Shown here in pieces: positions 36,139-43,361 of a stretch of 64,000 nt of DNA; position 1 is the stretch's first letter; each line of letters opens with the position of its first letter. Location: the NCBI RefSeq assembly GCF_002980595.1, contig NZ_PVLQ01000064.1:1-64000 (forward strand). Direction: 5' to 3'. The position numbers were made by a program, and so were the translations under genes. Source of the stretch: Malikia granosa (GTDB lineage Bacteria > Pseudomonadota > Gammaproteobacteria > Burkholderiales > Burkholderiaceae_C). Below the pieces are notes generated by a model. It was given only the letters and a program-made list of their open reading frames with translations, had not been told where the DNA came from and searched no databases.

Positions 36139-37965
<1,827 letters not shown>

Positions 37966-37988
37966 GCGCGCCAGCGCCTGCAAAGCAG

Positions 37989-38023
37989 AAAAGCCCGGAC
38001 CGGCAACGGTTCGGGCTTTTTTT
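37989..38023 (+). terminator. Terminator of the aceE-aceF-lpdA operon
   Basis: A GC-rich stem (37992-38001 with 38008-38017, one G-U pair) closes a 6-nt loop and is followed by seven T. It lies 24 bases after the lpdA stop. A-rich sequence on the other side gives a shorter T-run on the minus strand, so it may also end transcription of the convergent universal stress protein gene. Confidence 0.9.
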
Positions 38024-38040
38024 CCTGCGGGCTCAGCGCA

Positions 38041-38463
38041 TCAGCGCACCAGCAAGACCGGCACCTGGCAGCGTGCCAGCACCTGGGTCGCCACCGACCC
38101 CAGCACCAGGTTGGCCAACGCGCCGTGGCCGTGCGAGCCCATCAGCACCAGGTCGAACCCGCCCTCGCTGGCGGCCCTGGCGATCAGCTCGCCGGCCGGT
38201 CCGACCTGGTGCATGACTTCGGGCCTGATGCCATGGCCTGCCAGGTAGGCCAGCACCGGGCCATCGACCTTGGCGGCTTCCTCCTCGTAGTAGCCATGGG
38301 CCACCTCATGGCTGACCGCAGCCCTGGCACGCGGGGGCAGGGCGGCCACTGCGGTAAAGACCGTGAATTGGTTGTGCGGCCCGAACAGCTCAGGGTGGGT
38401 CGTCAGGTAGGCCAGCATCTTCTGGGTGAACGGGCTGCCGTCAACGGCAAGCAGGATCTTCAT
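38041..38463 (-). CDS. Universal stress protein, UspA family
   Basis: This 140-residue single-domain cytoplasmic protein begins MKILLAVDGSPFTQKML. It has the ATP-binding pattern G-2x-G-9x-GS in MGSHGHGALANLVLGSVATQ near residues 108-127, so it belongs to the nucleotide-binding Usp group. Such proteins are induced under stress; the precise function varies. It lies 48 bp downstream of the terC-like gene on the same strand and may be cotranscribed, placing it under the same metal-responsive leader. It converges with lpdA. Confidence 0.92.
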   Translation of the reverse strand: MKILLAVDGSPFTQKMLAYLTTHPELFGPHNQFTVFTAVAALPPRARAAVSHEVAHGYYEEEAAKVDGPVLAYLAGHGIRPEVMHQVGPAGELIARAASEGGFDLVLMGSHGHGALANLVLGSVATQVLARCQVPVLLVR

Positions 38464-38511
38464 GACAGTGCTCCGGTAAGGTGGACGGGGGCGGCTGGAT
38501 CGGCCAGGCCG

Positions 38512-39462
38512 TCAGGTGTTGGGAGCGGTCTTGGCGCTCCAGACCATGGTGATGGCCAGGATGCCGAGCACCACGCCCAGCGACACGGCCACCGGGATCT
38601 TGTAGATGTCGATCAGCAGCATCTTGCCGCCGATGAAGACCAGGATCACGGCCAGGCCATAGTTGAGCAGGTGGAAGCGGCTGGCCGCGGCCTGCAGCAG
38701 GAAGAACATGGCGCGCAGGCCCAGGATGGCGAACACATTGCTGGTCAGCACGATGAACGGGTCCTTGGTGATGGCAAAGATGGCCGGGATCGAGTCGACC
38801 GCGAAGATCACGTCGGTCAGGCCGACCAGGGCCACCACCATCAGCAGCGGGGTGGCGATCTTCTTGCCGTTCTCGACCGTCCAGAACTTCTCGCCGTCAT
38901 ACTGCTGGCTGACTGGCAGCAGCTTGCGCAGCAGCTTGAGCGCCGGGTTGTCCTCCAGGTCGGATTCCTTGCCGGCGGCCCACCACATCTTGAGGCCGGT
39001 CAGGACCAGGAAGGCGCCGAACAGGTAAAGGATCCAGTGGAACTGGGCCAGCAGCCAGCCGCCAACCAGGATCATGATCGTGCGCAGCACGATGGCGCCG
39101 ATGATGCCTATCATCAGCACCCGCTTCTGGAAGGCCGGTGGCACTGCAAAGTAGCTGAAGATCAGCAGGAAGACGAAGATGTTGTCGACCGCCAGGCTTT
39201 TCTCGATCAGGTAGCCAGTCAGGAACTCGAGCGACTTCTCGTTGGCCAGCGCCACCGAGCCGGTGCTGTCCTTCACTGCCCACCAGAGCAGGCCGTTGAA
39301 CAGGACGCTCAGGGCCACCCAGATCAGCGACCACTTGAGCGCCTCGCGCACGCCCACCACATGGGCGCCCTGCTTGTTGAGGACGATGAAATCGACGAAC
39401 AGCGACACCAGCACGAAGCCGGCGAATGCCAGCCAGAGCCAGAGGGGAGCGATGGTTTCCAT
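38512..39462 (-). CDS. terC-like: TerC family integral membrane protein
   Basis: This 316-residue protein has about eight to nine membrane helices. It carries the acidic motifs typical of TerC, including EKSLAVDNIFVFLLIF near residue 70 and LTDVIFAVDSIPAIF near residue 195, which could coordinate a metal ion. TerC and Alx relatives have been implicated in manganese export. I chose the ATG at 39462 because it has AAGGAA seven bases upstream and begins METIAPLWLW. A start 17 codons earlier would lie within the riboswitch expression platform. The 5' leader is a predicted yybP-ykoY element, which strengthens a manganese-related role. Confidence 0.93.
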   Translation of the reverse strand: METIAPLWLWLAFAGFVLVSLFVDFIVLNKQGAHVVGVREALKWSLIWVALSVLFNGLLWWAVKDSTGSVALANEKSLEFLTGYLIEKSLAVDNIFVFLLIFSYFAVPPAFQKRVLMIGIIGAIVLRTIMILVGGWLLAQFHWILYLFGAFLVLTGLKMWWAAGKESDLEDNPALKLLRKLLPVSQQYDGEKFWTVENGKKIATPLLMVVALVGLTDVIFAVDSIPAIFAITKDPFIVLTSNVFAILGLRAMFFLLQAAASRFHLLNYGLAVILVFIGGKMLLIDIYKIPVAVSLGVVLGILAITMVWSAKTAPNT

Positions 39463-39470
39463 GATGAATT

Positions 39471-39505
39471 CCTTGCAGCAAAGGTGTTGGACAACACCCG
39501 CAAGG
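39471..39505 (-). promoter_or_regulatory. Riboswitch expression platform, Shine-Dalgarno sequestering helix
   Basis: On the minus strand CCTTGC (39505-39500), the 3' arm of the aptamer P1 helix, is exactly complementary to GCAAGG (39476-39471), which contains the terC Shine-Dalgarno. Between them is a 6-bp hairpin (39493-39498 with 39483-39488, 4-nt loop). Forming P1 would therefore free the ribosome-binding site, and losing P1 would hide it. This predicts ligand-dependent activation of translation. Confidence 0.7.
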
Positions 39506-39640
39506 TCTTGCAACCGTCGGCCGATCAGCCTGGCGGGACAGCTCCGGCGTCCGCCTGATCGACGGGCCGCGTCTTGACGGAAACTGTCGCCAGCACAGCC
39601 GCTGCAGGCGGCCGGGCTGGCTTGCTACTCCCCTCTTGGG
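39497..39640 (-). promoter_or_regulatory. yybP-ykoY (manganese) riboswitch aptamer upstream of terC
   Basis: Read on the minus strand, this 144-nt leader has the conserved loop GGGGAGTAGC (39633-39624), an internal CCGTCAAGACG resembling the family's CGUCAA segment, and the 3' hallmark GCAAGACCTTGC (39511-39500). Helices can be drawn: a P1 from the outer CCCAAGAG and CCTTGCGGG arms, a GCCAGC...GCTGGC arm, and a GACAG...CTGTC arm, consistent with the family's junction. The downstream gene is TerC-like, a usual partner of this class. Based on remembered consensus, not a covariance search. Confidence 0.82.
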
Positions 39641-39647
39641 AATCTGC

Positions 39648-39676
39648 ATTGTCAGCCTGCTGCCAGGCTGTGGCAA
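39648..39676 (-). promoter_or_regulatory. Sigma-70 promoter of the terC leader
   Basis: On the minus strand TTGCCA (39676-39671) and GACAAT (39653-39648) are 17 bp apart. Transcription would start around 39640-39642, which is the first base of the predicted riboswitch. Between this promoter and the terminator at 39747-39779 (39677-39746) I see nothing else. Confidence 0.65.
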
Positions 39677-39746
39677 GCTGAGGGACCTTCCGGAAAAAAC
39701 TCAGGGTCGCGCGGGTCGTCCCTGTGCCGGCGGGCTTGGCAGGCAA

Positions 39747-39779
39747 GAAAAAACCGCCTGCGGGCTGGCCGGAGGCGGT
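39747..39779 (-). terminator. Terminator of the NlpC/P60 hydrolase gene
   Basis: A 7-bp stem (39753-39759 with 39773-39779) with a GC-rich loop is followed on the minus strand by TTTTTTCTTG. It lies about 38 bp after the stop of the hydrolase gene and insulates the terC promoter from it. Confidence 0.8.
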
Positions 39780-39816
39780 GATTCGGTGGCTGCTGCCGAC
39801 TCGAGGAGTCGGGCCG

Positions 39817-40374
39817 TCAGCGCGGCGAGGGCAGGGGGATGCTGCCGGCGCCAGCCTCGACCCGGCGCGCGCCGTTGAAGCGCTTGACCCAGTAGCTCTG
39901 GCGCATGTCCTCGACCCGCACCTGCGCGCCGCTGCGCGGGGCATGGATGAACTTGTTGTCGCCGATGTAGATGCCGACATGGCTGAAGGCCGAACGCATG
40001 GTGTTGAAGAACACCAGGTCGCCGGGCTTGAGCTCGTCCTGGCTGATGGTCTGGGTCGCGCGCGCCTGTTCGGCGGCGCGGCGCGGCAGCACCATGCCCA
40101 GGGTCTGCTCGTAGATGGCGCGCACGAAGCCGCTGCAGTCCACGCCATCTTCGAGGTCGTTGCCGCCGTACTTGTAGCGCACGCCCAGGAAACCCATGGC
40201 ATTGACGACCAGCTCGGAAGCGACCGAGCTCATGTTCTGGCGCACGCCTTCGAGGCGCGAGATCAGCCCCTTGCTGGCGACCAGTTCGCCCACCGGGTCG
40301 GCCTGGCTGGCGGGCTCGGCAGCAGCGAAGCCGCAGACCGAGGCGAGAGCGATGGCAATGATCAATGAACGCAT
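39817..40374 (-). CDS. NlpC/P60 family C40 cysteine peptidase, secreted
   Basis: This is a periplasmic cell-wall hydrolase expected to cleave gamma-D-glutamyl-meso-diaminopimelate type bonds in peptidoglycan. The 185-residue precursor has a signal peptide (about 1-19, CGFAAA). The NlpC/P60 domain (about 52-170) has a complete catalytic triad: Cys80 in GVDCSGFV, His132 in SHVGIYIG and His144 in FIHAPR. No lipobox Cys is convincing; Cys14 is within the signal peptide but the following residues do not fit well. It is divergent from the isochorismatase-like gene and has its own terminator. Confidence 0.93.
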   Translation of the reverse strand: MRSLIIAIALASVCGFAAAEPASQADPVGELVASKGLISRLEGVRQNMSSVASELVVNAMGFLGVRYKYGGNDLEDGVDCSGFVRAIYEQTLGMVLPRRAAEQARATQTISQDELKPGDLVFFNTMRSAFSHVGIYIGDNKFIHAPRSGAQVRVEDMRQSYWVKRFNGARRVEAGAGSIPLPSPR

Positions 40375-40453
40375 CTCTAGATTCTAACTGGTGGACATGA
40401 CAGCATGGTTAAATCACGCCTCTTGAACCACCCGTGATAACCCGGAGAAAAAC

Positions 40454-43224: not shown

Positions 43225-43328
43225 TGGCGAACAGTGGCACAATCCGGGGTTGCTTCAGTTCCTTCCAGTCACTGTCGCATCCGCCAACCGGTCCAGCCGT
43301 GTCGCGGAAGGTTTTTTTACCAGCTAAT

Positions 43329-43345
43329 GTTTCCCCGAGGGAAAC
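43329..43345 (+). promoter_or_regulatory. Hairpin adjoining the sucA ribosome-binding site
   Basis: GTTTCCC (43329-43335) pairs with GGGAAAC (43339-43345) around a CGA loop, and GGAGG (43346-43350) follows at once. It could stabilise the 5' end or tune ribosome access to sucA. Confidence 0.5.
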
Positions 43346-43361
43346 GGAGGTCAGCGAATCC

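Follow-up and report, generated by a model that had tools for sequence, protein, structure and literature searches.

Two leaders of E. coli, those of alx and mntP, carry Mn-responsive riboswitches of the yybP-ykoY class (PMC9603457). A survey describing 232 yybP-ykoY sites across lineages, including Burkholderia and Ralstonia, reports that many of the associated genes are tellurium-resistance transporters (PMC3766115), and the link of this RNA to transporters of the tellurium-resistance type is therefore not new. Suddala et al. 2019 (PMC6754395) give the L3 loop as ACA48U49ACU52 in X. oryzae and UCA41AU43UC in L. lactis, both forms being described as using the same phosphates and an invariable adenosine; our statements on L3 and the metal site also draw on PMC9190785. 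On the protein side, the TerC proteins of B. subtilis are reported to have Mn efflux activity and to metalate secreted enzymes; one of them, MeeY/YkoY, is controlled by a Mn riboswitch. The same source implicates E. coli Alx in Mn efflux (PMC10550928). V. parahaemolyticus mneA and terC are each predicted to lie 3' of a yybP-ykoY riboswitch, a pair that resembles the gene pairing in the genome studied here (PMC13274385).

We analyzed the terC leader (39642-39463, minus strand) of the window, a stretch of 64,000 nt of Malikia granosa DNA. Judged by sequence comparison, with a probability of roughly 0.8, this leader would be a Mn2+-sensing yybP-ykoY riboswitch of the L. lactis/alx-like L3 sub-type that acts as a translational on-switch for terC. 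The riboswitch class itself is already known, and a preliminary description of the locus, which had named the class and the on-switch logic, was right in substance. The two hallmark loops that it had reported were located at 39633-39624 (GGGGAGTAGC, loop 1) and at 39511-39500 (GCAAGACCTTGC) of the minus strand, the four-helix aptamer fold of the class is possible, and the gene downstream, previously called TerC-like, does belong to the TerC family, as expected of a class that precedes Mn homeostasis genes. Malikia spinosa has the same leader arrangement, with a TerC identity of 93%. The features of the locus are listed in Table 1.

Table 1. Features of the terC locus of the window (all on the minus strand)
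Feature	Positions	Strand	Basis or detail
Sigma-70-like promoter	39648..39676	-	-35 TTGCCA 39676-39671, spacer 17, -10 GACAAT 39653-39648; 9/12
P1 5' strand CCCAAGAGG	39632..39640	-	GAGG 39635-39632 pairs with CCTT; constrained fold
L1 5' strand GGAGUA and start of P1.2 (GC)	39624..39631	-	Sequence, fold
P2 hairpin, 13 pairs	39589..39621	-	Constrained folds of the window and relatives (40 printed)
P3 hairpin	39537..39588	-	P3.1 39588-39578/39546-39537, P3.2 39570-39561/39555-39547; fold, covariation, strand-swap control
L3 bulge UCAAGAC, 7 nt, L. lactis type	39571..39577	-	Fold; L3 sequences given in PMC6754395
P4 hairpin	39514..39536	-	Constrained fold
P1.2 and L1 3' strand UUGCAAGACCUU, closing the aptamer	39502..39513	-	Sequence, fold
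Switch strand CCUUGC	39500..39505	-	Partner: P1 5' strand (via CCUU) or Shine-Dalgarno; folds, covariation
Spacer hairpin GGUGUUGUCCAACACC, switch strand to Shine-Dalgarno	39483..39498	-	Similar stretches in several short-leader relatives
Shine-Dalgarno GCAAGG	39471..39476	-	Sequence
terC, 316 aa, TerC family, Alx-like length	38512..39462	-	ORF; PF03741 E 7.7e-51
Universal stress protein (Usp) gene	38041..38463	-	PF00582; 48 nt past the terC stop

L1 of the class is represented by GGGGAGUAGC as the 5' strand (39633-39624) and AAGACC as the 3' strand (39509-39504). Imposing P1, L1, and L3 on the window leader yields P2, P3, and P4, and the relatives with an L. lactis-type L3 (L type, as opposed to the X type of X. 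oryzae and the RF00080 consensus) form the same kind of junction in the constrained folds that were printed. At L3, UCAAGAC (39577-39571) stands against UCA41AUUC of L. lactis, and by this analogy its third base, A (39575), is the expected Mn2+-binding adenosine. P1 of the window leader is predicted to be weak, with four pairs (GAGG/CCUU), one of them G.U, and a possible CCC/GGG continuation past a 2x2 mismatch. The unconstrained minimum-energy fold of 39440-39690 differs in that L1 is paired with the first terC codons, which we think is a by-product of the Ala-Pro-Leu codons.

Both P1 and P3 covary in relatives. Among 43 leaders from other genera, in which GGGGAGTAG is invariant but which were selected by that same motif, the P1 columns 8-172 hold AU in 27, GC in 9, and CG in 5 leaders. 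Position -4 of P3.1, counted over 117 leaders (three of them X type), is GC in 42, CG in 26, TA in 12, TG in 10, AT in 9, and GT in 7. The mean compatibility of the P3.1 strands of 114 L-type leaders is 10.72 with their own partners and 9.85 after swapping (sd 0.11, highest 10.15 in 300 swaps), a statistic that, like that for the switch helix given below, takes no account of relatedness. RNAalifold proposed a CGU/ACG hairpin inside L3 from a MAFFT alignment of the 43 leaders; we rejected it, since no sequence varies there and P3 is misaligned. Because the alignment misplaced P3, the covariance model built from these 43 leaders was given the P1 and P1.2 pairs only, and P3 was tested by strand swapping.

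Three described systems can be set beside this leader. E. coli alx (locus L159) shares with it L1 (GGGGAGUAAC), a 7-nt L3 bulge (UCAUUAC) between P3.1 and P3.2, the P1 3' strand (GACCUUGC), and a TerC gene downstream. The alx leader is longer, however. On inspection, GGCGAGGUC is a possible partner of its P1 3' strand, in a hairpin that lies apart from the start codon; the corresponding strand of the window leader has the Shine-Dalgarno sequence itself as its partner. The L. lactis yoaB riboswitch (4Y1I) has an L3 of the same kind with its Mn-binding adenosine (PMC6754395), and five Hydrogenophaga loci (L194, L195, L198, L206, and L213) have the L. lactis form UCAAUUC in the place of L3 ahead of terC. 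It differs from the window leader in the gene that it is reported to control, yoaB (PMC9190785), and in its described mode of action, transcriptional antitermination (PMC11087558). The X type, which includes E. coli mntP, has L1, the overall junction, and the Mn-sensing class in common with the window leader but differs in an L3 of UCAACAUACU with a 3' AUGG strand, in being found by RF00080, and in the GDT1/UPF0016 genes downstream in the loci examined. One such X-type aptamer occurs elsewhere in the genome of M. granosa itself (C72), ahead of a GDT1 (PF01169) gene, where RF00080 scores 100.4 bits.

The terC leader, on the other hand, gave no match to RF00080 in cmscan, the check proposed in the preliminary description, even at an E value of ≤10 (521 nt scanned; Rfam 15, gathering cut-off of 45 bits). 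By the criterion set in that description the call would thereby be refuted, but this failure is a false negative, and its cause is the more useful result. The RF00080 consensus L3 is GUCAACAUACUUG..CAUGGC, i.e., a UCAACAUACU..AUGG loop, as in E. coli mntP, while the corresponding region of the window is CCG-UCAAGAC-GCG..CGG with its 7-nt bulge. The control genome, that of E. coli K-12, behaved accordingly: alx was unmatched by RF00080 at E ≤0.01, and even mntP (L160), of the other loop type, scored 41.6, below the cut-off. The test is thus invalid for this sub-type, and we take its outcome as a limit of the model, not as part of the definition of the class. RF00080 reached its cut-off in 0 of the 36 L-type loci tested (of 114 instances), two of which scored below it at 30.5 and 26.4 bits, and matched 4/4 X-type loci at 67-75 bits. 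RF00080 seems to be blind to the L. lactis-type L3, which would explain the missing match. The blind spot may not be absolute, since RF00080 was matched in the L. lactis control genome (5 of 14 controls matched, 2 of them above the cut-off), with no match under stricter filters.

Other Rfam families account for nothing in the leader: scanned against all of them at E ≤10, it gave three chance-level matches to eukaryotic families only. Rfam also names a family of RNAs found upstream of terC. No match to such a family was present in the leader among the Rfam 15 families, and a literature search for "terC RNA" returned unrelated papers only. Over the whole window, cmscan gave three matches to two families, none of them in the terC leader. 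Elsewhere in the window, a sucA RNA motif (RF01070, 84.3 bits) lies at 43275-43356 of the plus strand, directly ahead of the sucA/odhA start codon, and two tandem tRNA-Leu (CAG) genes with equal Rfam scores and the same anticodon lie at 275-359 and 418-502 of the minus strand.

The covariance model from other genera recovers what RF00080 misses. Searched with this model at E ≤1, the M. granosa genome gives the window leader (50.8 bits, E 8.4e-9) and nothing else. The model also detects E. coli alx, at 23.5 bits and E 5.6e-4. It matches an X-type locus (L001) at E 0.051 only and gives no match on E. coli mntP at E ≤1. A decayed or chance look-alike with no function, to which the absent RF00080 match and the weak P1 of the window might point, is scarcely credible against this sole genome match of a held-out model, the covariation of P1 and P3 in relatives, and the arrangement shared with M. 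spinosa.

The preliminary description had also expected the two hallmark loops to recur in related genomes, and they do recur together in the leaders of related TerC genes. GGGGAGT is found in the leader of 52 of the 80 closest named TerC homologues (the best 80 of 346) and is absent from the 300 nt upstream of the other 28. The motif GTCANNRC follows 30 to 95 nt past GGGGAGT in 46 of these 52; of the remaining six, five carry the L. lactis sequence GTCAATTC and the sixth carries CGCCAATAC. By comparison, GTCANNRC was present in 2/52 leaders in the same-sized stretch before GGGGAGT and anywhere in 300 nt in 7 of the 28 leaders without GGGGAGT. A strict pattern matched 32 of the 80 named leaders, and the further ones printed were mostly variants, such as GGGGAGTAAC and CAGACC. 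Leaders printed without L1 came from Limnohabitans, Rhodoferax, and some Polaromonas contigs. Several TerC homologues (L210, L215, L225, L235, L240, and others, from Limnohabitans, Rhodoferax, and other contigs) show no sign of an aptamer in the leader, suggesting that the switch was lost or never gained there.

A three-block pattern that admits both loop types was found in 126 of 399 genomes of the same family, or 60 of 141 genera, more often than chance would give, with no match seen in the control columns; leaders gathered in this way have the L3 adenosine by construction. The loop type goes with the gene. Among the 108 pattern loci that were fetched, 102/104 L-type instances lie ahead of a TerC-family gene and 5/5 X-type instances ahead of a GDT1 exporter gene, the two L-type exceptions (L081 and L113) having neither a TerC nor a GDT1 gene within 1.2 kb. 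Over all loci, the L type stands with TerC in 112 cases and with none in 2, and the X type stands with GDT1 in 14 and with neither in 1; as the loci were partly chosen by hand, the ratio of L to X is meaningless, but the gene linkage is still meaningful. The TerC label takes in proteins of the Alx-like form as well as shorter ones (about 250 aa); four of the shorter ones were run, and all matched PF03741. At L117 and L155 (in genomes G239 and G308), two L-type aptamers stand back to back on opposite strands, separated by about 97 nt, and a TerC-family gene follows each of them. At another (L003), an X-type aptamer precedes an open reading frame that matches neither GDT1 nor TerC and by eye resembles a cation exchanger (compare B. 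pertussis BP3410). A strict pattern search across the class matched 5 of 229 genomes, three of them from the family of M. granosa and two from outside, both X type, so that no L-type instance was found outside the family under the strict pattern in this sample; the control of the search gave one match (genome G155).

Transcription of the leader was previously proposed to start on the first aptamer base. The promoter-like site is present, and a scan of 37900-40450 found it (TTGCCA-17-GACAAT) as the sole site against 0.3 expected. As estimated from the -10 box, the start is likely at about 39643-39641, 1 to 3 nt before the first P1 base. A TAtaaT-like hexamer occurs 19 to 22 nt ahead of GGGGAGTAG in 59 of 114 L-type leaders, whereas each of two control distances gives one such leader among the 114. 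In the interval that separates the terC promoter from the upstream NlpC/P60 gene, a terminator-like hairpin with a T-run lies at 39730-39790 of the minus strand; it is absent from the terminator-scan list. Given this hairpin, terC probably has its own transcript. The Usp gene is probably cotranscribed with terC, but the proposal that the riboswitch also controls it is poorly supported, since only 6 of the 90 related loci have a Usp gene 3' of terC, two of the six being the same M. spinosa locus.

CCTTGC (39505-39500) and GCAAGG (39476-39471) are perfect complements. The preliminary description had this strand pairing either within P1 or with the Shine-Dalgarno sequence; the Shine-Dalgarno helix holds for all six bases, but the two that follow CCUU do not clearly pair in P1. 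Comparison of relatives argues for the helix with the Shine-Dalgarno sequence. In the 32 leaders whose start codon lies at most 50 nt from the aptamer, pairing of the P1 3' strand with the Shine-Dalgarno region of the same leader comes to -9.99 kcal/mol, compared with -8.41 kcal/mol for swapped regions (sd 0.31; 0/500 shuffles), whereas 23 longer leaders show no difference (-5.84 versus -5.86). When the set was enlarged by named relatives, the short leaders (up to 62 nt, 69 in number) gave -10.89 versus -9.82 (0/1000 shuffles), and the 22 longer leaders of the enlarged set gave no pairing signal (743/1000 shuffles). Position by position, in the 48 of the 69 short leaders that have a CCTT strand and a RAGG Shine-Dalgarno sequence, switch position 5 is paired in 38 (GC 26, TA 7, GT 3, TG 2) and unpaired in ten, and position 6 is paired in 30 (CG 12, GC 7, GT 5, TA 3, TG 2, AT 1) and unpaired in eighteen. 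Matched pairs include CCUUGC/GCAAGG in the window, CCUUGU/ACAAGG (L023), and CCUUUC/GAAAGG (L117).

The computed energies, which omit tertiary contacts and metal, are -84.8 kcal/mol with the Shine-Dalgarno helix forced and -73.7 kcal/mol with the aptamer closed, placing the off state about 11 kcal/mol lower. The off state would thus be the default, as is expected of an on-switch. In the forced off fold, P3/P4 are rearranged as well. The free energy minimum (-85.3) blocks the Shine-Dalgarno sequence in part by a different pairing, and closure of the aptamer still leaves the final two bases of GCAAGG only about 0.34 unpaired.

We propose that at low Mn2+ the switch strand CCUUGC would pair with GCAAGG and block the ribosome. 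At high Mn2+, the metal would clamp L1 to L3 and stabilize P1, which would then take CCUU from the Shine-Dalgarno sequence and allow terC to be translated. TerC would in turn move Mn2+ out of the cytosol. The class assignment and the on-switch logic of the preliminary description are both borne out, as far as comparison of sequences can tell, by the match of the other-genus model and by the covariation with the Shine-Dalgarno sequence in short leaders.

The same Mn2+ aptamer could instead act mainly on transcription, which at low Mn2+ would end prematurely within the leader by an intrinsic or a Rho-dependent route. Intrinsic termination is described for L. lactis (PMC11087558), transcription of B. 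pertussis BP3410 is interpreted as ending within the riboswitch when Mn is absent (PMC8546581), and Rho- and riboswitch-dependent regulation of mntP is named in the title of PMC11647493; the long-leader relatives, which have no Shine-Dalgarno pairing signal, are also consistent with such control. In the window, however, the terminator scan lists no site in the roughly 40 nt between the aptamer and the terC start codon, and the covarying complement of the switch strand is the Shine-Dalgarno sequence, which together favor translational control. RNA-seq over the riboswitch-led mneA and terC of V. parahaemolyticus is likewise described as showing no drop-off at the riboswitch (PMC13274385). We therefore regard mainly transcriptional control as unlikely in this leader; since the L. 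lactis and B. pertussis switches are described as transcriptional, the translational step here is one that we infer.

Less probable still, and by a clear step, is that the architecture is the same but the ligand has changed, or that alkaline pH or another metal is the main signal. The leader of E. coli alx, which shares the loop type of the window and precedes a gene of the same family, is reported to respond to alkaline pH as well as to Mn (PMC9603457), and L3 positions 43-44 are GA in the window compared with UU in L. lactis. Yet the window leader retains the L3 adenosine and the L1 sequence, and phosphates together with that adenosine are described as holding the metal in both of two solved structures whose L3 sequences differ (PMC6754395).

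Sensing of Mn2+ by a translational on-switch thus remains our preferred reading, and this short leader, in which a P1 strand and the Shine-Dalgarno sequence are in direct competition, offers a compact test system for Mn switching at the level of translation. Our literature search found no paper on yybP-ykoY together with Comamonadaceae or with TerC and Betaproteobacteria. A tentative possibility is that in this beta-proteobacterial family the 7-nt-bulge class of aptamer drives TerC and the other class drives GDT1 exporters, perhaps tuned to different Mn2+ levels or pH, and that the former makes up a large unannotated set unseen by the reference model. In every case tested, and E. coli alx is one of them, the L-type sub-type is missed by the manganese model of Rfam 15. 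This suggests that annotation relying on RF00080 may undercount Mn-regulated TerC genes.
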